Shown here: positions 3,829 through 34,322 of the stretch, piece by piece
How positions within the stretch are numbered: position 1 is the stretch's first letter
How the letters are laid out: each line of letters opens with the position of its first letter
NCBI GenBank assembly: GCA_001778905.1
Contig: MFIQ01000002.1
Span: 1 to 40,030 of the forward strand
Reading direction: 5' to 3'
DNA: 40,030 nt
Source: Candidatus Giovannonibacteria bacterium RIFCSPLOWO2_12_FULL_44_15
Lineage (GTDB): Bacteria > Patescibacteriota > Minisyncoccia > JACPKW01 > UBA11713
Program-made: the position numbers and the translations under genes
Notes under the pieces: generated by a model
Database searches by the model: none
What the model saw: the letters and a program-made list of their open reading frames with translations, nothing else
What the model was told of the DNA's origin: nothing

Positions 3829-3848
3829 CCCAAATTATGCCACAGAAA
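3829..3848 (-). repeat. 20-bp intergenic box copy 2
   Basis: Exact match to 321-340 and 6055-6074. Confidence 0.9.
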
Positions 3849-5632: not shown

Positions 5633-5694
5633 TTAGTTTTTGAAGCAACTTATTTCCCCTAAAAATAATATATTTCTCACAAATTGTCCACAAA

Positions 5695-5728
5695 AACAAA
5701 CCGCCTCGGCTTCGATAGCGCGAGGCAG
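5695..5728 (-). terminator. terminator after coiled-coil gene
   Basis: gcctcg...cgaggc stem followed on the minus strand by GGTTTGTTTTTG. Confidence 0.55.
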
Positions 5729-5752
5729 TGGTGGCATAAAATTAAGTCTACT

Positions 5753-6007
5753 TTAAATTTCGACTCCGAGCTTATCGCGGATGATTTTCTTTATACGATT
5801 GTGCTCGGCCTTCAGGGTTACGAATTCGAAAGTCTTTTCTAGTAGGGCTGGAAATTCATCCCGCGTCGGCACATTCTTCATCCGCTCTCCCAATCCGTCA
5901 ACTTTTTTTTCAATCCTAACAACATCGCCAGCTAAATCGTTTAAATCCTTCGCCTTAGCAATACCATTGAGTGCTTCTTTCAGATCTCGTTTTGTAATCG
6001 GATTCAT
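5753..6007 (-). CDS. small predicted coiled-coil protein
   Basis: 84-aa ORF, MNPITKRDLKEALNGIAKAKDLNDLAGDVVRIEKKVDGLGERM...; same gene type and 20-bp upstream box as the 1-269 ORF. Confidence 0.65.
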   Translation of the reverse strand: MNPITKRDLKEALNGIAKAKDLNDLAGDVVRIEKKVDGLGERMKNVPTRDEFPALLEKTFEFVTLKAEHNRIKKIIRDKLGVEI

Positions 6008-6054
6008 GTATTATATTTTACTGCGAGAGTAAAATCATCGCAATCCCCCACATC

Positions 6055-6074
6055 CCCAAATTATGCCACAGAAA
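6055..6074 (-). repeat. 20-bp intergenic box copy 3
   Basis: Exact match to 321-340 and 3829-3848. Confidence 0.9.
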
Positions 6075-6119
6075 TAGGAGAAAAATAAGGGGAAAATAAA
6101 AAACACAGGGCGAACAAAG

Positions 6120-6725
6120 TTATTGCAAATCCTGAATTTTTTTCTTCAAGATCTCCGTTCCTGCTTCCCTGCTCGCGGCATCAAGATTAAAAACTTTTCC
6201 GAATGTTACCCTGATATATCCCCGTCTGGTTTTAATGTGAATGGGTAGGATGAGGACTTTCGCCTCGAGGGCAAGGGCCGAAGTCCCGTGATAGAAATAT
6301 CCAAGCTCGTCTCCGCGGATCAAAAATCCTTCCGGAAACATCAAAACTGTCCCTCCTTTTTCTAATATCCTCGTCGGAAATTTAATCGCTTTCTCTATCC
6401 CCTGCCCGCGCCCCGAAGGAAACCCTCCGGTCAATAAATAAAATAATTTTAAAATCCTTAATCTGGCGATTAGTCTCAGTACCTTCGACCGGAAATCAAA
6501 TTCCTCCGTGATATACCGCCCGGGCAAAATCGGCGAGAGCCACGGCATGGAAATAACAATAAGAAAACCGTCCAGTAGCGTTTTATGGTTTGAAACTATT
6601 ATCAGGGGTGCCCTGACACCCGTTAAATTCTCCCTGCCGCGCACTTCGATCTTATAGAAAATCCGTAAAATAATCCCGGCAATTGGCCAGATTAAAAAAT
6701 ACTGAATAAACCAATAAAAAATCAC
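6120..6725 (-). CDS. plsC: 1-acyl-sn-glycerol-3-phosphate acyltransferase (PlsC family)
   Basis: SNHKTLLDG (NHx4D) and LMFPEGFLIRGDELGYFYHGTSALA motifs. Confidence 0.85.
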   Translation of the reverse strand: MIFYWFIQYFLIWPIAGIILRIFYKIEVRGRENLTGVRAPLIIVSNHKTLLDGFLIVISMPWLSPILPGRYITEEFDFRSKVLRLIARLRILKLFYLLTGGFPSGRGQGIEKAIKFPTRILEKGGTVLMFPEGFLIRGDELGYFYHGTSALALEAKVLILPIHIKTRRGYIRVTFGKVFNLDAASREAGTEILKKKIQDLQ

Positions 6726-6738
6726 CAGTTTATTATAG

Positions 6739-6776
6739 CAAAAAAGGCGTCGTCCTGTGAGACAACGCCTTTTTGG
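6739..6776. terminator. bidirectional intrinsic terminator
   Basis: aaaaaaggcgtcgtc ctgtga gacaacgccttttt hairpin. Confidence 0.7.
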
Positions 6777-6895
6777 TCATGATTTTACTAACTTCTCTAC
6801 CCTTCGGACTATGCCTCAGGAATAGACTAATGATTCTTGGCATACCCGTCGGACAACGCCTCGGGGGTATGCAAAGTTAGCGCAAACGAACTATT

Positions 6896-8446: not shown

Positions 8447-9496
8447 CTAGATCCCTTCCTTTTTGAGTTCTTCAATTATTTCTTTTGCTTTTTTGGAAAG
8501 ATGTTTCGGAGTTTTGACTGATATGCGGATTATAAGGTCTCCCCTTCTCGCGCCTTCGGCTCCCGGAACTCCGCGACCGCGGATTCGCAAGGATTCTCCG
8601 GAATCTATCCCTGCCGGAATTTTAACTTTAAGTATTCCGTCTAGCGCGTTTATCGTCCGCTCGCTTCCCAAAATAGCCTCTGTAATCGGGATTGCCAAAT
8701 CCATCACGAGATCTTCACCCTCGCGCGTAAACAGTGCGTGTTTCGATACATTAATACGGATATAAAGATCTCCGGCAACTCCCCCAGAAACAACTTCTCC
8801 CGATCCGGATATCTTAATTATCTCTCCGTCTCGTATGCCGGGGGGAACATTTACAACAATTTCTTCTCTTTTATGGACAACTCCCCCTCCTTTGCAAACT
8901 CCGCAAATCTCATCCGGAATTTTTCCGCGCCCGATGCATTTCCTGCATTCAACCACGCGCATGAAAGAACCCAAAAATGATTTCCCGGATTCGCGGACCG
9001 TGCCGGATCCATTACAAGACGTACACGTTTTGGTTTTTGAACCGGGCGCCACCCCGGAACCTTGGCAATTTGAACAATACGCTGCTTTAGTCAAAAGCAC
9101 TTTTCTTTGGACCCCGAAAATTGATTCTTCGAAATTTACGTCAACTTCAATTGAGATATCGCGCCCGCGCTTAACCCTAGTCCCTCGCCCGCCCATATTA
9201 AACAAGTCTTCAAAAATATCCCCGAAATCAAACCCGGACATATCGCCAAAATCAAAACCGGTCGCCCCATGTCCACCTCCGGCCTGATCCGAAAAAACCC
9301 TGCCATAGTGGTCGTATTCTGCGCGCTTTTTTTCGTCAGACAAAACTTGATAAGCTTCGTTGATTTCTTTAAAATCGTTTTCTTTGCCGCCTTTATCGGG
9401 GTGGTGCTTATGCGCCAATTTCCTAAACGCTTTTTTTATCTCGTCCTTGGACGCGTTTCTTTGGACTCCTAAAATCTCGTAATAATCTTTTGGCAT
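8447..9496 (-). CDS. dnaJ: chaperone DnaJ
   Basis: [34 protein letters not shown]-domain; four CxxCxGxG-type repeats; C-terminal DnaJ domain. Confidence 0.97.
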
Positions 9497-13719: not shown

Positions 13720-13931
13720 TAAGTTGAAGCTGAGAGCAATTGCCACTCTCCCTTTCTTTTTACTGCCCGAAAAACATTATTTTTCTTCATTTCGGACGTA
13801 TCCTCATCCAGTATTATTTTTGAATTCCTGGGTAACGCATCCAAAATATCGGGGTGCTTTAAAATATATTCCTGAAATTCCACAGAAAGCTTTAAGTTTT
13901 TTTCCATTTTTTTTAATTCAGATTCAGACAT
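13719..13931 (-). CDS. small protein, possible DUF5647-like / toxin-antitoxin partner
   Basis: MSESELKKMEKNLKLSVEFQEYILKHPDILDALPRNSKIIL...; family recalled by eye, needs confirmation. Confidence 0.6.
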   Translation of the reverse strand: MSESELKKMEKNLKLSVEFQEYILKHPDILDALPRNSKIILDEDTSEMKKNNVFRAVKRKGEWQLLSAST

Positions 13932-15528: not shown

Positions 15529-16506
15529 TTATTCTTTAAGCGATTGCCCTATTTTGGAAAGTGCTTCCTCAATTTCTTCGACTGCTTTAGAGCCTATTCC
15601 CTGGAGCGAAAGCAAATCTTCTTTTGATTTTTTAACCAACCCTCCAACCGTCCTGATGCCAGCCCCCGATAAGGCGTTCTGGGTACGGGAAGAAAATTCA
15701 AGATCTTCTATCCGGACTTTAAGCGGATCTTCGTCGTCAAGCGCTTTCCCCGCTTCGGCAGAAGCAATCTCTTCTTGAGAAAGCTCCGCAACTTCGGGAA
15801 CTTCGCTTTTAACCTTCTCTTCGTCAAAAACCAGCGCTTCAAGCTGCTTTACTAAAATCCTGACGGCCTCCTCGATAGCGTGCTTCGGATTAATGGTCCC
15901 GTCGGTTTCGATCAAAATCCTAAGCCGGTTGTAATCTGTCCGATCGCCCACACGCATATTTTCAACCTCATAGTTTACTTTCTTTATCGGCGTAAAAATG
16001 GCGTCTAGGGTCAGCATGCCGACTTCAGCTTTTTCCTTCTCGAGAACTTCCCTCGGGATATATCCCAAGCCGCGCTCGACAGTGGCTTCAATTTCGAACT
16101 TCGCTTCCTTGGAAGTTAAAGTCGCAATGGTTAAATCCTTATTCATGACTTCCACTTGCGTCGGGGTTTCAAAGTCGCCAGCGGTCACTTTTTTAACTCC
16201 TTTGGCGGATATCTTTATAACCTGCGGCTCATCAACATGCATCAATAACCTAACCTGTTTTAAATTGAGGATTAAGGATATTATGTCCTCTTTAACGTCC
16301 GGAATCGTCGAGAATTCATGGGATACCCCGTGAATTTTGACGCGGGTAATAGCAGCCCCCGGCAGAGACGACAGAAGAACGCGACGCAAGCTATTCCCTA
16401 TAGTATGCCCGTAGCCCGGGTGCAGGGAATCAATCTCGTAAACTCCTTTATTTTCTTCCTCGGATACGGTGCGTATGCGGGAAGGTATTGAAATGGTGTA
16501 GCTCAT
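15529..16506 (-). CDS. rpoA: DNA-directed RNA polymerase subunit alpha
   Basis: HPGYGHTIGNSLRRVLLSSLPGAAIT; C-terminal alphaCTD helices. Confidence 0.97.
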   Translation of the reverse strand: MSYTISIPSRIRTVSEEENKGVYEIDSLHPGYGHTIGNSLRRVLLSSLPGAAITRVKIHGVSHEFSTIPDVKEDIISLILNLKQVRLLMHVDEPQVIKISAKGVKKVTAGDFETPTQVEVMNKDLTIATLTSKEAKFEIEATVERGLGYIPREVLEKEKAEVGMLTLDAIFTPIKKVNYEVENMRVGDRTDYNRLRILIETDGTINPKHAIEEAVRILVKQLEALVFDEEKVKSEVPEVAELSQEEIASAEAGKALDDEDPLKVRIEDLEFSSRTQNALSGAGIRTVGGLVKKSKEDLLSLQGIGSKAVEEIEEALSKIGQSLKE

Positions 16507-16537
16507 AACTCAATCGTTAAACCATTAATTAATAATT

Positions 16538-17152
16538 TTATCTCGAGTAAAACTCAATGATCGCCTTTAAATTAATATTTGAACCCAAGAGTAAATCGTC
16601 TTCCGTCGCGGGAGAACTTAATACAACGCCTTCTTTTTTCTCTTTATCAAAAGAAAGCCAGGCTGGCGGGACATATTTTTTGAGGTAGGTATCCAAATCC
16701 CTAAAAATTCCACCGGAAAGGCTTTGCTGCTTGATTGTAATTTTGTCGTCTTTCTTGACCCTGAATGACGGGATATTCACCCTCCTGCCGTTCACCATAA
16801 AATGCCCGTGCGTGACGCCCTGCCTTGCCTGCGTTCGAGTCTGTGCAAACCCCAGGCGGTAAACCGCGTTATCGAGCCTCGACTCCAAAAATTTCATAAG
16901 ATTTTCCCCAGAGTCTCCAGTCCTTTTCTCCGCTTCCCTTATATAATTCCTGAACTGGCGTTCTCGAAGGTTATACAAAAATTTAAGTTTCTGTTTTTCT
17001 TTAAGCTGTGCCCCGAATTCGGACGAAGCACGCGAAAACTTGCGCGTTTTCCCATGCTCGCCGGGGGCATACGGCTTTCTTTTAAACGCGCATTTCTCGC
17101 GTCCGCAAATCGACATCCCCAACCGCCTGCAAATTTTGCATGAAATCCTCAT
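16538..17152 (-). CDS. rpsD: 30S ribosomal protein S4
   Basis: CKICRRLG...[16 protein letters not shown]4 domain [37 protein letters not shown]. Confidence 0.96.
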
Positions 17153-25958: not shown

Positions 25959-26732
25959 TCATAGCTCGACCGCAAAGTTTACAGCGTTTTCAAACATCTG
26001 CAAACCGTGTGGCTTATCTATAGATTCTCTTCGCCAGTTATCGAATTGGGAGAATTCAACGAAGCGTTCCGGATGCGGCATGAGCCCAAAGATCCGGCCG
26101 AATGGATCGCATACTCCCGCGATGGAATAGAGCGACCCGTTCGGATTCGCCGGATAAAAATCAGCCGGCTGGCCACCCTCGGAATAGCGCAATGCTACGC
26201 AATTTTTATTCTCACCGATCTCCGGCCATTTCGTATCCACAAAGAAGCTTCCCTCGCCATGGGCAACTGGAAGCATGATCTCGTTATCGTACCCGCGGGT
26301 AAAAATGCACGGACTTCCCTTTTCTGTGATGAGCTTTATCCACCGGCACTCGAATTTTCCGGAATCGTTAGTCTCGAGTGTTGCGTACCGAATGCCTATA
26401 GTATTTAACGGCAAGAGTCCGGATTGAACGAGCACCTGGAACCCGTTGCATATTCCGATGACAAGTTTCCCTGCATCAACGAATTCTTGAAGCTCGTCGT
26501 GCAGAAATGAAATAAGCTCAACCGCCAGAATCTTTCCCGATGCCACATCATCTCCGTAAGAAAACCCACCGGGAATTGCCAGTATCTTGTAGCTCCGGAG
26601 GCGGAGTGCGCCGCTCCGGAGCTGGTTTACGTGCACGAACTCAGGATTGCCTCCCGCTTTTCTAAAAGCGTAGGAGGTTTCTTCATCGCAGTTCGTGCCG
26701 TCCGTTCTCAAAATGCAGACTTTGGGTCTCAA
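25959..26732 (-). CDS. purQ: phosphoribosylformylglycinamidine synthase, glutaminase subunit
   Basis: CILRTDGTNCDEETSYAFRKAGG, AIPGGFSYGDDVASG, GICNGFQVLVQSGLLP. Confidence 0.93.
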   Translation of the reverse strand: MRPKVCILRTDGTNCDEETSYAFRKAGGNPEFVHVNQLRSGALRLRSYKILAIPGGFSYGDDVASGKILAVELISFLHDELQEFVDAGKLVIGICNGFQVLVQSGLLPLNTIGIRYATLETNDSGKFECRWIKLITEKGSPCIFTRGYDNEIMLPVAHGEGSFFVDTKWPEIGENKNCVALRYSEGGQPADFYPANPNGSLYSIAGVCDPFGRIFGLMPHPERFVEFSQFDNWRRESIDKPHGLQMFENAVNFAVEL

Positions 26733-29557
26733 TGGAACACCTCCTTCATAGGTTTCTGCCAGAACTCTTTCAATTCATCAAGGTCAGCTCGGAAAACATG
26801 GCCGCGGTTATGAACGCTGATAACTTCGCTTGCAATCGTGCGTCCAATTTCCTCCGCATGCATTCCCAAAGATTGAACCTCGTAAACATCCATATCCCTC
26901 ACCTCAATGAGAAAGCAACCGGCAGTCTCGTTAAATAGCCGAAAATCTATTCTCTCTTTTTCTTCGCGCGCGTACCCGAGTTCCAGAGATGCGCCCATCC
27001 CACCGCCGAAGCACATCTCCGCGAGAGTCGTGAAAAGTCCTCCATCGCTTATGTCGTGGCAGGAAAGAATAATTCCTCTGGCAATAAGCCGGTGAAGTTT
27101 CTGAAACGTCCTCACCGCTTCTTTGAGATTAACCCTCGGCAGATTATTGCCAACTATGCCATGCAGATCGTAGTAAACTGAGCCTGCCATCTCCAGCTTT
27201 CGCAATCCCACTTGCATGATTGCGGATCCTTCCTCTTTGAAATCCGCAGAGATCGTTTTTCTCACATCCCGAATTTTTCCGAAGACCGAGATGCAAAGCA
27301 CCGGAGGAATTTTGATAACTGTGCCGTCTTTCCCGCGATACGTGCTCGACAAGCTATCCTTGCCGGAAATGTACGGAATCCCGAACGCCTCCGCGATGTC
27401 TACACACGCATCAACCGAGCGGTCTAGCGCGCCCAATTCCTGTTCGTCGGGATACGGCCAGATAAAGTTATCGATAAGCCGCGCTTCTCTCGGATCCCCG
27501 CCCACAGCGACAAAGTTTGCTAATGCTTCAGTCGCCGCCCAGACACTCCCCCAATACGGATCAATGCGATTCAATATCGGGTTCAGTCCGTGGCTGATAA
27601 TAACTCCATAGCGTTCCCCCAAAATCGGCGTCAAAACTACGGCGTCGTTCGGCCCGTCGTGATTGACGCCCGAAAACGGCGCGAGGGCATTCATGCCCTG
27701 CACGCTATGATCATACATCCGCACAATGGATTCCTTTGAGCAAACATTTGGATGGCTCAAAATTCGGCGGCAGGTTTCTCTCCAGTCGCTCGGCACAGGT
27801 ATCTCCGGTTCCTCAAATTCCGGGCGCACCCAATTTGCATTCAGCACTCGCTGCGGCAAGCCGTGATGAAGAAAATCCATACTGAGATCGCAGAGCGTTT
27901 CGTTTTCGTACATCACCACAAGCCGTCCGGTATTGGCGAAAACTCCAAGCCACGTTGCTTCGACATTCAAAGCCTCACAGATTTCGAAGAAGCGAACTAT
28001 ATTTTCCGGGGCAATAGCAACCACCATTCGTTCCTGCGATTCCGAAATCCAGATTTCCCACGGCGACATTCCCGGATATTTGGTCGGCGCCCGCTCAAGA
28101 GCTACATGAATGCCGGTTTCGCTTCCCATCTCTCCGATAGCCGACGAAAAACCTCCCGCTCCGCAATCGGTTATGGCGCGAATCAAACCTTCATCGCGAC
28201 ATCTAAGAACTGCGTCGCCCACTTTTTTTTCCTCGATCGCATTTCCTATCTGGACTGCGCTGGCATTAACCTGTACGGTCTGGTCGGTCATTTCACCCGA
28301 AGAAAACGTTGCGCCATGGATTCCATCCCGCCCGGTTCTTCCGCCAATTACAATAATCCTGTCTCCCGGCTGCGGCTTGCCTTTTAGACACTTGCCCACG
28401 GGAATTATTCCGTACGCGCCGACAATAACCGTAGGTTTTGCACGAAAATCTTCGTGGAAGTGTATGGAGCCATTATTGGTCGGGACGCCCATGCGATTCC
28501 CATAGTCCCTAACTCCATCAACCACGCGTCGTAATAAATAACGAGGACTCAAGCAACCGGCAGGAAGTTTCTCTGGGTCAAAGTCTGGAGGAGCAAAACA
28601 AAAAATATCAGTCGATGCAATTGGCTTTGCGCCCTCGCCGTCCCCGAAAATATCCCTTAATACCCCGCCGGTTCCCGTCATCGCTCCGCCGTAAGGCTCG
28701 AGCGCACAAGGACTATTATGAGTTTCTACCTTTCCGCACAAACCTTGCCCGCCGAAAAAATCTATAACGCCGGCGTTGTCATCGAAGACCGAGAGCAAGC
28801 CGTCCGCGAATTTTTCCGCCGTTCCCTTAATTCGGGCGATCAATGGTTTTTTCCCCACGCCGTTCACAATAAGGCGCGCTCGAAAAGTTTTGTGGCTGCA
28901 GTGCTCGCTCCAAGTTTGAGCATATGTTTCACATTCCCCATCAGTCAGATCGCGCCCTATTTCACAAGCGTGCGCCTGGAGAACTCGCATCTCTTCGAGA
29001 TCAAGATGCCATTCATGATTCTTGGATAGTTCCACTAGTTCCTCGCCGCTCATTCGACAAATGGGGATGATCGTGATCGCTCCGCGTTCGCCCGAGATAA
29101 TAAGCGTAATAGGCGGCTCGATGACAACGCGCTCGACAGTTTTGTTGACTAGCAGCCGGTCGCAGATAAATTGAACGTCCTCATCCGACGGCGTTCCAAA
29201 GAACCCATACTCAGTGCTGGAATCCGCCGCGACAAGATTTATGCCCAGATCGCCTACCGCTTTCATGATCGACGCCGCCTCCGGATTCATTACTCCGGGT
29301 TTGTAAGCGACTTCGATTAAGCGGGCCGCAAATTGGATCAGCGGTGAATTCAAAGTGAATACCTGCGTCAATTGGTCTGTGAAAAGTTTTTCCGCGAGAT
29401 AGGATGCATCCTCGGGTTCAATTCCCTCGAGACGATAGACGCGCGCCGTCTTAACACCAACGATGCTCCTGATACCCAAATTGCGTATTTCGGTAAAACA
29501 GCTTTGACCTCGAACATCAGTTCCGATTTTGGTTCCTACTCTTACCACTTGTATCAT
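26729..29557 (-). CDS. purL: phosphoribosylformylglycinamidine synthase, large subunit with N-terminal extension
   Basis: QTWSEHCSHKTFRA, KVETHNSPCALEPYGGAMTGTGGVLRD; overlaps the purQ start by 4 bp. Confidence 0.93.
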   Translation of the reverse strand: MIQVVRVGTKIGTDVRGQSCFTEIRNLGIRSIVGVKTARVYRLEGIEPEDASYLAEKLFTDQLTQVFTLNSPLIQFAARLIEVAYKPGVMNPEAASIMKAVGDLGINLVAADSSTEYGFFGTPSDEDVQFICDRLLVNKTVERVVIEPPITLIISGERGAITIIPICRMSGEELVELSKNHEWHLDLEEMRVLQAHACEIGRDLTDGECETYAQTWSEHCSHKTFRARLIVNGVGKKPLIARIKGTAEKFADGLLSVFDDNAGVIDFFGGQGLCGKVETHNSPCALEPYGGAMTGTGGVLRDIFGDGEGAKPIASTDIFCFAPPDFDPEKLPAGCLSPRYLLRRVVDGVRDYGNRMGVPTNNGSIHFHEDFRAKPTVIVGAYGIIPVGKCLKGKPQPGDRIIVIGGRTGRDGIHGATFSSGEMTDQTVQVNASAVQIGNAIEEKKVGDAVLRCRDEGLIRAITDCGAGGFSSAIGEMGSETGIHVALERAPTKYPGMSPWEIWISESQERMVVAIAPENIVRFFEICEALNVEATWLGVFANTGRLVVMYENETLCDLSMDFLHHGLPQRVLNANWVRPEFEEPEIPVPSDWRETCRRILSHPNVCSKESIVRMYDHSVQGMNALAPFSGVNHDGPNDAVVLTPILGERYGVIISHGLNPILNRIDPYWGSVWAATEALANFVAVGGDPREARLIDNFIWPYPDEQELGALDRSVDACVDIAEAFGIPYISGKDSLSSTYRGKDGTVIKIPPVLCISVFGKIRDVRKTISADFKEEGSAIMQVGLRKLEMAGSVYYDLHGIVGNNLPRVNLKEAVRTFQKLHRLIARGIILSCHDISDGGLFTTLAEMCFGGGMGASLELGYAREEKERIDFRLFNETAGCFLIEVRDMDVYEVQSLGMHAEEIGRTIASEVISVHNRGHVFRADLDELKEFWQKPMKEVFH

Positions 29558-29602: not shown

Positions 29603-29636
29603 TCAAAAAGTAGCAAAATCCAGAGAAATAAGCAAA
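29603..29636 (-). promoter_or_regulatory. 34-bp purine-gene motif copy A (upstream of purL)
   Basis: tcaaaaagtagcaaaatccagagaaataagcaaa. Confidence 0.75.
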
Positions 29637-29643
29637 GTGAAAA

Positions 29644-29680
29644 ATGCCCCATCCGATCGCGTCGGATGAGGCATTGAAAA
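29644..29680 (-). terminator. terminator after DUF84 gene
   Basis: atgccccatccga tcgcg tcggatgaggcat hairpin, T run on the minus strand. Confidence 0.7.
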
Positions 29681-29684
29681 CAAA

Positions 29685-30230
29685 CTAGCTTTTTTTATGC
29701 AGGAGCGCGGCGAGAGCCATTTGAACCGCCATCGCCTCTTCGTCTAATCGAGAAATGGCGTTTCGCGTCATAAGGCCGATGTGGCCGTATTCGTAGCGTG
29801 CGTTCGGTATGCCCGATGTTTTTTCAATCGCTTCGCCAAGCTGATATCCCTGCCTTATTAAAGAAACGATATTCGCAGGAACAAAAACGCTCGGACCCGC
29901 TCCGCTTCCTTCATCTCCCTTATCGTTTATCACCACGCTCCATGTGCGAAGATAGCAAATGCCACTGACCATCTCCAATGTACCCTCGATACCCACTCCA
30001 AATTCCGCATCACTGACTTCATTCAGCGCAGTCCTAGCCCGATTTCTGGCTCCTAATATCCCTTCGCAATCGGACACCGGTTGCTTCCTGATACCGGAAG
30101 AAACTGGCGTCGATATAAATTTCCACTCAGCCGAATTCGCATTAGCCTCATTCGGCATCATTCGACAAAAAGCCAACTCTGCCGCTTGTCGTTTTGTCGC
30201 TTGATTGGATCCTACAGCCACTATAGGCAT
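29685..30230 (-). CDS. inosine/xanthosine triphosphatase-like (DUF84/YjjX family)
   Basis: VAVGSNQATKRQAAELAF, GILGARNRARTAL, FGVGIEGTLE, FVPANIVSLI. Confidence 0.8.
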   Translation of the reverse strand: MPIVAVGSNQATKRQAAELAFCRMMPNEANANSAEWKFISTPVSSGIRKQPVSDCEGILGARNRARTALNEVSDAEFGVGIEGTLEMVSGICYLRTWSVVINDKGDEGSGAGPSVFVPANIVSLIRQGYQLGEAIEKTSGIPNARYEYGHIGLMTRNAISRLDEEAMAVQMALAALLHKKS

Positions 30231-30260
30231 AAAACACCTCCAGTCAAAGATTCTATTCCC

Positions 30261-30294
30261 TCAAAAAGTAGCAAAATTCGAGGAAATAAGCAAA
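30261..30294 (-). promoter_or_regulatory. 34-bp purine-gene motif copy B (upstream of DUF84 gene)
   Basis: tcaaaaagtagcaaaattcgaggaaataagcaaa. Confidence 0.75.
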
Positions 30295-30304
30295 ATAAAT
30301 TTTT

Positions 30305-30346
30305 GAATAGTAAGTATTCTCGCGATCGCGAATATACTTACTATTC
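30305..30346. repeat. 42-bp palindromic repeat copy 1
   Basis: GAATAGTAAGTATTCTCGCGATCGCGAATATACTTACTATTC; near-identical to 34277-34318. Confidence 0.85.
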
Positions 30347-30358
30347 AAATAAAAAACC

Positions 30359-32503
30359 TCAAAAAGGCAATATGTCGTAGCAATAGCGATCAATTTCTCC
30401 GCCGCAACCCCTTGAATCGTCCCCGTCAAATCCTGCAGTACTGGACCATGCTCCGCTCCCTTTCGCGCCGCAGCCTTTGTCGGTTTTAGAATTGCAATCT
30501 TTGTCGTTAGCAAGCCCGACACTGTCCCTACTCTCCAAACTCGCCCCGAGATGATACGAGTCGCGGGAATTTTTCAGGGTATGGTAAGTATAGTAGTATT
30601 GCGCTTTTGTTGTCGGATCGGTTGGCAATGTCTGCGAATATTTCGGGCTGACGTCGCTCAATTTCGCTGGGTACCCGTTTTTTTCATCGTAATAAAGCTC
30701 AAATGCAAGACGCAACTGGCTTAAATCCGCCATACGGCGTGCATCCCGGGCCTTCATTCGCGCGATGCTTAAGGCACCTCCGGATATTTCGTCGGATATT
30801 TCGTAGAAAGTTTTGGAATCTTTCGGCGCATCGATTTTCACTTCTTTGTTGATATCCGAAATTACCACCTTAAAAACTATATTTATCTGCTTATCTTTGA
30901 GTGTTGTTGCCGAGTCGGATGGCACCGCGCGGATGGTATAGGTAATGATCGCGGGATACCCATTCGCGTCAGCCCAAAGGGTAAGCTTGGCATTTTTATC
31001 ATAGTAATCGAACGCTTCATTGAATTCCGGGCTTTTCAAATATTCGAGATATCCGCGATCGGCGATCAGAGAATAATCCGTAGTAAGACTCTTTTTATCC
31101 GCTTCTTTTATTAGGCGCTCGTAAAACAAGGCGACTGCTTCCTTGCGGATTTTGAGATCGTAGCGGTAAAGCGACCTCCCCTCCACATTTTCGGAACGCG
31201 GGGCGTTTTCAAAAGCGAACAGTTTCTCCTCGTCCGCGATCGTCGCCGCCTTTTGAATTAACTCCAGGAGCTCCCTGCGGTTCTCCTTATATTTTTTCTC
31301 GGCATCTGGGACTTCGTTTGTAAAATAGGAAAAATCGCCGTATGATGCGTCTTCCGAAGACGTAGCCGCATTTGGATCGATTTTGATCCACTGGCCTTTT
31401 ATGTTTCCAATAAAACCTAAAAATATGCTCGGGATATTATTGACCCGTAAATAATATATTCCATCTTTCTTGAGGGCATCCGCGTTTAATTTATAGGTCA
31501 GGTCCCCGAGGTCTCCAGTGGCATCGCCGTTGAATTTCCAATCGGCTGTTTCTTTTTCCCAATCCGTCTGTGCGGAGGCAGAGAAGCTTACATTCATCTC
31601 TGGGGGCGCGTAGTTAACCATCTCTTGAAGCGAGACCAAAAAGGGCTTAGGCGGCTCGGAAGATATATACAGGTAACTCGAGCTGTCTTTTGTAAACGTT
31701 ACTCTCTTTCCTTCGATGCGAGTCGCCTCGGGCTTAAAATTATAAATTTTTTTCAACTGAACTATGGCATTATCCGTTTCGAAGTTAATTGTGAGTTCAA
31801 AATTTTTGCCGTCACCCGATCGCCTATACCCGTATTCCTCTTCCGTCTTGGGATCAGTTATGGACAATTTGCTCGTATAATAATATTTCTGCTTTCCGGC
31901 GTCGACAAGCAATTGCTTCGCGGTCGCGGGATATGGATTGGTTTTTTGGGAATATCCTAAAGTCTGCAAATACTGCAGTATCGCTCCCGCATTCTGCGCT
32001 CGCGCCGAATCATTTTTATACATCTCACGCGCCGCGTTGCCTAAAGTAAGCTTAGAGGAAAACGGCTCGGCATCGGCATCGCGCTTGCCAACGGATACCG
32101 AGGCAGAAATTGAATAAGAAGAAGTATCGATTTTGGAAGCCGCGAGGAGAATTCCGGACATTAAATTATCCTCGGCATATGGTGCGTGCGCGAAGGGACC
32201 AAGCTTCATGAAATATGCGTACGCCCCACCTCCAAGCAAAGCTACGACGACAATCCCAGCGGATATAGATATAATCAGTTTTTTGTAAGAGCGAGGCTGT
32301 TGTTGAAACTGGCCTGGTTGTTGGAATTGAGCTGGTTGAGGTTGGACAGGCGCAGTGCTAGTTTTCTCAATCTCCGAAAACCCTGCGGCGATATCTGCAT
32401 CCTGCCACCCCGTGTCTTTTAAAGCTTTAATTACTTCGTCTTTTGATTTCCCCGCGCTAAGCGATTGCTGAATAAATTTAAGGAGCTCTGTGTTTGGATT
32501 CAT
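30359..32503 (-). CDS. large membrane-anchored protein with C-terminal pseudopilin-like segment
   Basis: Start revised to ATG 32503 (MNPNTELLKFIQQSL...); TM KLIISISAGIVVVALLGGGAYAYF; C-terminal KARDARRMADLSQLRLAFELYYDEKNGYP. Confidence 0.75.
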   Translation of the reverse strand: MNPNTELLKFIQQSLSAGKSKDEVIKALKDTGWQDADIAAGFSEIEKTSTAPVQPQPAQFQQPGQFQQQPRSYKKLIISISAGIVVVALLGGGAYAYFMKLGPFAHAPYAEDNLMSGILLAASKIDTSSYSISASVSVGKRDADAEPFSSKLTLGNAAREMYKNDSARAQNAGAILQYLQTLGYSQKTNPYPATAKQLLVDAGKQKYYYTSKLSITDPKTEEEYGYRRSGDGKNFELTINFETDNAIVQLKKIYNFKPEATRIEGKRVTFTKDSSSYLYISSEPPKPFLVSLQEMVNYAPPEMNVSFSASAQTDWEKETADWKFNGDATGDLGDLTYKLNADALKKDGIYYLRVNNIPSIFLGFIGNIKGQWIKIDPNAATSSEDASYGDFSYFTNEVPDAEKKYKENRRELLELIQKAATIADEEKLFAFENAPRSENVEGRSLYRYDLKIRKEAVALFYERLIKEADKKSLTTDYSLIADRGYLEYLKSPEFNEAFDYYDKNAKLTLWADANGYPAIITYTIRAVPSDSATTLKDKQINIVFKVVISDINKEVKIDAPKDSKTFYEISDEISGGALSIARMKARDARRMADLSQLRLAFELYYDEKNGYPAKLSDVSPKYSQTLPTDPTTKAQYYYTYHTLKNSRDSYHLGASLESRDSVGLANDKDCNSKTDKGCGAKGSGAWSSTAGFDGDDSRGCGGEIDRYCYDILPF

Positions 32504-32555
32504 GTAATTAATTATACCGCTTCCGGCGGTTTTCATTTGTGAGTATCTGTAAAAA

Positions 32556-32597
32556 TAAAAAGGGCGTGTGCGAGACAATTCCCGCACACGCCCCTAA
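32556..32597 (-). terminator. terminator after purM
   Basis: gggcgtgtgcg...cgcacacgccc stem followed by TTTTTATTTTT on the minus strand. Confidence 0.75.
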
Positions 32598-32610
32598 ACT
32601 TCAAACTTGC

Positions 32611-33729
32611 CTAACGAACACCAAGAGTTGACCCCCGAAACTCCAGATTCTTCGGCTTGATGATGACTTTCTTCTCGTCGCTCCGCTCGATATGGCCGGC
32701 GTGCACTGCGCTGAGGCCTTCCGGAAACTTTTGCCTCTCGACAATGGCCAGAACTTTCCGCGCGTGAGTTTCCGGTACATACAGCGCGAAACCTGCGCCC
32801 ATATTCAAGTTTCCATACGCCTCCATGTCATCCACCGGGCCATACTTCTGAATGAAGTCAAAGATCGGAAGTTGCCTCGGTAGCAGCGAGATGCTGTAGG
32901 TAAAGTCGCCCTGCGCTCTCATGAGCTTCCGCCAGCCGTGTCCTGTGATATTCACGGCGTAATGGATGTAAACGCCAGCATCTAGGCAATCCTCGACAAA
33001 CGGAACATAGATCGGTGTCGGGTCGAGAAGTGTATCGCCGTATGTTCGCCCGTCGCTGAGCCGTGTGAGATAGCCATCAGGTAATTTCTTAGCGATCTTC
33101 CGAGCCATCGTGAGCCCATTCGCGTGGATACCGGAACTTCCGATGAGAATGATTGCGTCTCCGTGCTGGATATTTGGATAAATTACTTTCGATTTTGGCT
33201 CTACTATTCCAACGGACGATCCAGCGATAACAGACGCTTCTTCCCCGATGATATCTTTGAGAGTTGGAGTTTCTCCACCTCCCCAAACACAACCCGCGAG
33301 GTCGCAAGCGTATGCCCAGCCAGCTATCAGCTCCTCCATACGTGTTTTATTTTTAAACCACTCGGAGGCGCCAGTTGCCAAATGTTGGGATGCCCCCAAT
33401 GGCCTTACCCCAAGCGTTATCATGTCATTGAAAATCATTGCGGCCGCGTCTATCGCGACTTTAAAATAATATGAGCAGCCAGTAAGCTTTTCCATGGCAT
33501 CGGCAACCAAATTTTTTGTACCGAGGCCCTCCTCAACAATCCCGAGAATAAAATCATGGTGAAGAGATTCCATCATATACACGCTTTCTCCGCGGCTCCA
33601 TTCGAGCTCGCGAAAACCTCTCTTCAGTAGATTCTTTGCAGTCTTTCGCGCGGCGAGCTGTGCCATGCGCTTAAACGGATCCATCGCGTCGTAATCCACG
33701 CCGACATTCTTATATGTCATGTTGCTCAT
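32611..33729 (-). CDS. purM: phosphoribosylformylglycinamidine cyclo-ligase (AIR synthetase)
   Basis: GVDYDAMDPFKRMAQLAARKT, AIDAAAMIFNDMITLGVRPLGASQHLA, GSSGIHANGLTMARKI; start revised to ATG 33729 with SD ggagg. Confidence 0.88.
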   Translation of the reverse strand: MSNMTYKNVGVDYDAMDPFKRMAQLAARKTAKNLLKRGFRELEWSRGESVYMMESLHHDFILGIVEEGLGTKNLVADAMEKLTGCSYYFKVAIDAAAMIFNDMITLGVRPLGASQHLATGASEWFKNKTRMEELIAGWAYACDLAGCVWGGGETPTLKDIIGEEASVIAGSSVGIVEPKSKVIYPNIQHGDAIILIGSSGIHANGLTMARKIAKKLPDGYLTRLSDGRTYGDTLLDPTPIYVPFVEDCLDAGVYIHYAVNITGHGWRKLMRAQGDFTYSISLLPRQLPIFDFIQKYGPVDDMEAYGNLNMGAGFALYVPETHARKVLAIVERQKFPEGLSAVHAGHIERSDEKKVIIKPKNLEFRGSTLGVR

Positions 33730-33758
33730 AATTTTCCTCCAGTCAAAGATTCTTTCCC

Positions 33759-33792
33759 TCAAAAAGTAGCAAAATCCAAGGAAATAAGCAAA
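33759..33792 (-). promoter_or_regulatory. 34-bp purine-gene motif copy C (upstream of purM)
   Basis: tcaaaaagtagcaaaatccaaggaaataagcaaa. Confidence 0.75.
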
Positions 33793-33866
33793 ATTAAATT
33801 AGGAAGTTGATTTAATATTCAGACTGCGCTAGTTTAGGGCAAACGCTGTTTTGAAAGGAGTGCTCT

Positions 33867-34262: not shown

Positions 34263-34276
34263 CCTAGGCGGTTTTT
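34238..34276 (+). terminator. terminator after GtrA-like gene
   Basis: aaaaaccgcc...ggcggttttt hairpin. Confidence 0.7.
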
Positions 34277-34318
34277 GAATCGCAAGTATTCTCGCGATCG
34301 CGAATATACTTACGATTC
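34277..34318. repeat. 42-bp palindromic repeat copy 2
   Basis: GAATCGCAAGTATTCTCGCGATCGCGAATATACTTACGATTC. Confidence 0.85.
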
Positions 34319-34322
34319 AAAT

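Follow-up and report, generated by a model that had tools for sequence, protein, structure and literature searches.

A conserved, promoter-like element shared by three nucleotide-metabolism units in a Candidatus Giovannonibacteria genome

In the DNA of a tiny uncultured bacterium (Ca. Giovannonibacteria; genome G000, 745,416 bases in 32 contigs) the same 34-bp element stands ahead of purL, purM and a gene for a DUF84 family NTPase, which raises the question of whether these copies are promoters, binding sites of a purine regulator or mere products of local duplication. The window (i.e. the whole stretch of 40,030 nucleotides analysed here) corresponds to contig C2 of this genome, and its relevant features are as follows (promoter hexamers are putative):

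25959..26732, minus strand: purQ, overlapping the end of purL and in the same unit; passes Pfam cut-offs
26729..29557, minus strand: purL, with a fused PurS-like N-terminal part; passes Pfam cut-offs
29603..29636, minus strand: copy A, before purL-purQ; -35 TTGCTT 29635-29630, TG 29615-29614, -10 TACTTT 29612-29607
29643..29675, minus strand: terminator-like hairpin after the DUF84 gene, just ahead of copy A
29685..30230, minus strand: DUF84 family NTPase, inosine/xanthosine triphosphatase-like; passes Pfam, below the NCBIfam equivalog cut-off
30237..30265, minus strand: leader of copy B, common to copy C, ending in a Shine-Dalgarno sequence
30261..30294, minus strand: copy B, before the DUF84 gene; -35 30293-30288, -10 TACTTT 30270-30265
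30302..30349, strand undefined: palindromic repeat followed by a T-run, terminator-like, after a pilin-like gene and just ahead of copy B
32560..32595, minus strand: terminator-like hairpin after purM
32611..33726, minus strand: purM; passes Pfam, below the NCBIfam equivalog cut-off
33736..33763, minus strand: leader of copy C, common to copy B
33759..33792, minus strand: copy C, before purM; -35 33791-33786, -10 TACTTT 33768-33763

The three copies, all on the minus strand (0 in 100 shuffles), read TTTGCTTATTTC-N5-ATTTTGCTACTTTTTGA and differ solely at motif positions 13, 14, 15 and 17, which gives copies A, B and C the centres TCTGG, CTCGA and CTTGG. The positions, common strand and purely central variation given in a preliminary description were exact, and the distances to the start codons, put there at 30-46 bp, measured 45 bp (ATG 29557), 30 bp (ATG 30230) and 32 bp (ATG 33726). 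Equally present were the pair of TTTGCT half-sites, which form a direct repeat at a distance of 19 bp, and the leader GAGGGAA(TA)GAATCTTTGACTGGAGG that had been ascribed to copies B and C; the leader of copy A is unlike it, and all leaders (~30-45 nt) hold little besides the Shine-Dalgarno sequence. As previously described, no copy precedes the intervening gene (30359-32503), which by eye shows a TATAAT box at its start instead.

Considering the terminator-like hairpins after purM, the pilin-like gene and the DUF84 gene, we note four apparently separate units (purM, gene 30359-32503, the DUF84 gene and purL-purQ), three of which carry the element. That its targets act in purine synthesis or nucleotide sanitation was borne out: PurL, PurQ and PurM are accompanied by a probable inosine/xanthosine triphosphate clean-up enzyme (DUF84), all passing Pfam cut-offs.

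The repeat between the pilin-like gene and copy B belongs to a multi-copy palindrome (core TTCTCGCGATCGCGAA, arms ~24 nt) found between genes in the bacterium's family; some of its copies resemble two-way terminators and others directly precede a promoter, and the one ahead of the DUF84 gene is identical at 57/57 positions to one after gtrA in the sister genome G001. Copies were located at:

window: 30302-30349 and 34274-34321
elsewhere in G000: C3:28161-28206, C3:28823-28862 and C20:2067-2106
relatives: G001 C9:9850-9897; G003 C8:24003-24031

Further repeats were recorded in the same genome. A second clustered one, TTTCTGTGGCATAATTTGGG, which resembles an extended -10 (TGGCATAAT), occurs in exact copies at 321-340, 3829-3848 and 6055-6074 of the window (minus strand), and 266 kb of the genome yielded no others. 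On contig C26 (L023) a 22-base exact repeat, GTCTCCTGAAATGGTTTAACGT, lies at 13849 and 15362, close to the starts of two genes and with 1.5 kb between its copies, and contig C10 (L151) holds imperfect tandem repeats at 16303-16980 (spacings ~147 bases).

Allowing up to three mismatches, the 34-bp element is unique to its three window copies in the whole 745-kb genome. A scan allowing eight mismatches returned just two further matches (with 7 and 8 mismatches) in the 266 kb of genome read in detail, and a relaxed own-genome scan, in which the pattern spacing was one base short (so that the true copies scored 3 mismatches), added two weak matches, one of them within a coding frame. When the regions ahead of 105 putative genes were compared, only the three copies formed a strikingly similar set (30-32/34), the next-best pair (26/34) being both strands of one AT-rich intergenic region. 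An exact search of viral contigs did not find the element, and plasmids searched with the region around copy A gave no match. Thus, the generic promoter before many unrelated genes that the preliminary description had named as its refutation was not what the genome-wide scan revealed: all three copies precede nucleotide-metabolism genes, and a fourth precedes purL of the sister species.

This fourth copy, the ortholog of copy A (C9:5481-5514), was the only occurrence elsewhere among 387 genomes of the class and lies upstream of purL in G001 (Candidatus Giovannonibacteria RIFCSPLOWO2_12_FULL_43_11c), whose PurL is 89% identical to that of the window; at 80 purL loci of other bacteria (Desulfotomaculaceae, Curtissbacteria, Dependentiae and others) the motif was seen only in the sister species. 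Between copy A and its ortholog the core differs at 1/29 positions and the centre at 3/5, while 30.5% of the fourfold-degenerate sites of purL differ between the two genomes, and we take the core to be constrained since so few changes would be expected with P ~3.6e-4 given this divergence (an indicative value, as the core/centre split was post hoc). Over all four copies the centre varies at 4/5 positions and the core at 1/29 (Fisher P 5e-4, likewise indicative, with a post hoc split and non-independent copies). Conservation is also good in the stretch adjoining the start codon of purL. As the G001 copy is closer to copy B (centre TTCGA/CTCGA, then TTGAG-GAATA) than to copy A, the copies have drifted around a fixed core.

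What, then, could hold this core in place? Read 5' to 3', the element consists of TTGCTT, 17 bp and TACTTT, with a TG one base ahead of the second hexamer; nothing but the short leader of each gene follows it, and we consider it probable, from sequence features, that it is a promoter (-35 TTGCTT, 17-bp spacer, extended -10 TGCTACTTT) whose copies make the three units a co-expression set. All copies have what defines an extended -10, a TGN ahead of a hexamer whose second base is A and whose sixth is T (TGC-TACTTT in the three window copies, TGC-TATTTT in G001). The 17-bp spacing, the TG extension and the 30-45 nt to the ATG support the promoter reading; it is weakened by hexamers that each match only 3/6 consensus bases (the -35 despite its 17-bp spacing), by a strict promoter scan that misses both, and by invariant flanks (ATTTC and ATTT in the spacer, TTGA after the -10) beyond the needs of a bare promoter. 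In the part of the genome that was sampled, two patterns were enriched ahead of genes, TGCTANNNT (9 vs 1.9 in shuffles, the three copies probably being among the nine) and TGNTANNNT (22 vs 9.0 in shuffles, again probably counting the three copies). The leader of the DUF84 gene holds TAGAAT as another conceivable -10, which was discarded, being absent before purM and purL. Of the 'direct-repeat operator or special promoter' suggested earlier, the promoter fits better than the operator, with TTGCTT-17-TGCTACTTT as far from the start codon as is normal for promoters. An RNA polymerase with a housekeeping-type sigma factor would read the element, transcription would start ~25-45 nt ahead of each ATG, and the three units would probably be switched on together.

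The poor hexamers and invariant spacer flanks also leave room for a dedicated nucleotide-responsive regulator, which would bind the TTTGCT half-sites over a weak promoter and govern a very small purine-linked regulon (purL-purQ, purM and the DUF84 gene); judged from the sequence, we hold this to be possible, though on the doubtful side. Bases invariant outside the hexamers, the variable centre, the weak hexamers, the direct repeat and the fact that all three targets act on purine nucleotides speak in its favour, but the half-sites overlap the -35 and the extended -10 and may simply follow from them, the known PurR sites are absent at the copies, and the candidate regulator protein is only hypothetical. 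Moreover, the element was found neither before the purC-purE fusion of the same genome nor before its two purD genes (C22:2969-4222, C30:7965-9224). The purine genes of this genome comprise these two purD genes, purL-purQ, purM and the purC-purE fusion; purF and purH were not found with curated models (a weak purF match was partial and far below the cut-off) and, as the genome is rated 100% complete, the pathway seems partial. With the purC-purE and purD genes devoid of the element and purF and purH not found, a general purine regulon element is not supported: the candidate of the preliminary description survives only in a narrow sense, as an element exclusive to purL-purQ, purM and the DUF84 gene, and control of the three units by purines is hypothetical.

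Local duplication offers a different account, in which the copies are alike merely because they arose recently and share no meaning beyond a usable promoter. The leader common to copies B and C, the confinement of all three copies to 4.2 kb and the other clustered promoter-like repeat (321, 3829, 6055) agree with it; nonetheless, we regard it as improbable, for the core was kept in the sister species in spite of the fourfold divergence and the variation is concentrated in the centre.

Riboswitches occur upstream of purine genes in other bacteria. The B. subtilis pur operon is a case in point (PMC10912719). That the element forms part of such an RNA switch, as its location upstream of purine genes might hint, is highly implausible, given that only 30-45 nt remain after it, that these differ between copy A and copies B/C, and that none of the copies matched an Rfam model, relaxed thresholds included.

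Returning to the promoter reading, we asked how three units came to carry the element. Alignment of this genome with G001 revealed a conserved order of purL-purQ, gene 30359-32503 and gtrA, interrupted in the window by the two remaining units: at the place of the purM unit (~32560-33804) G001 has a transposase gene, and at that of the DUF84 unit a protein-L-isoaspartate methyltransferase gene. From these two genomes, either gain in this genome or loss in G001 would account for both units. None of the other six genomes in the family yielded the DUF84 gene, and the window's type of purM has a patchy distribution (9/289 genomes of the class, E <= 1e-60). G001 has a different, divergent purM directly after its purC-purE fusion, and this genome has the fusion without purM there; the two loci (G000 C26 (L023) 8698-9033 vs G001 C34 (L024) 5664-6818), with the other purM type in the window, look like a non-orthologous purM replacement. 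The regions ahead of the closest purM relatives (G035, G129), read by eye, have no such element and thus give no indication of the promoter having come with purM. Since the purM and DUF84 units are species-specific relative to G001, we infer that they probably acquired copies of the purL promoter; the element would then be an older feature of purL-purQ in the genus, and purM and the gene for the DUF84 NTPase would be transcribed from its copies, each as a separate promoter-gene-terminator unit, so that all three units would be expressed alike.

The element is real, unique, conserved, promoter-like and common to three units, and their co-expression is likely. As nothing was retrieved in a literature search for Patescibacteria purine regulons and mapped promoters, such an element before three functionally linked units provides a concrete, testable case of shared control, and it suggests that reuse of a resident gene's promoter may be how newly placed metabolic genes are wired in. 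It is rather unlikely that a Patescibacteria-specific, nucleotide-sensing regulator acts on the direct-repeat promoter, the other-type purM and the DUF84 NTPase having been recruited by copying of the purL promoter; if true, this would illustrate step by step how a regulon grows in a genome of <1 Mb.

Among known systems, the extended -10 promoters of the sigma-70 type resemble the element in the TG one base before the -10, the 17-bp spacer and the normal distance to the start codon, whereas its poor hexamers (3/6 each) and the invariance of its spacer flanks and of the bases following the -10 set it apart. In E. coli, the PUR box is a palindromic operator like ACGCAAACGTTTNCGT; this pattern (2 mismatches allowed) had no match at the copies, and its total in the window was below chance. 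The regulon of E. coli PurR (LacI family) is similar in that one element is common to scattered pur genes, including purL and purM, but the PUR box is a palindrome and not a direct repeat, and the element described here covers only part of the pur genes. The PurBox of Firmicutes follows the pattern AWWWCCGAACWWT, which likewise gave no match at the copies, with a window total as expected by chance. The PurR systems of B. subtilis and L. lactis are comparable in their repeated boxes near pur promoters and differ in their sequence pattern, absent at our copies, and in having a PurR where here a regulator is only hypothetical. The L. lactis PurR activates transcription (PMC10912719), and an activating PurR of this kind would suit a promoter as weak as the one proposed here.
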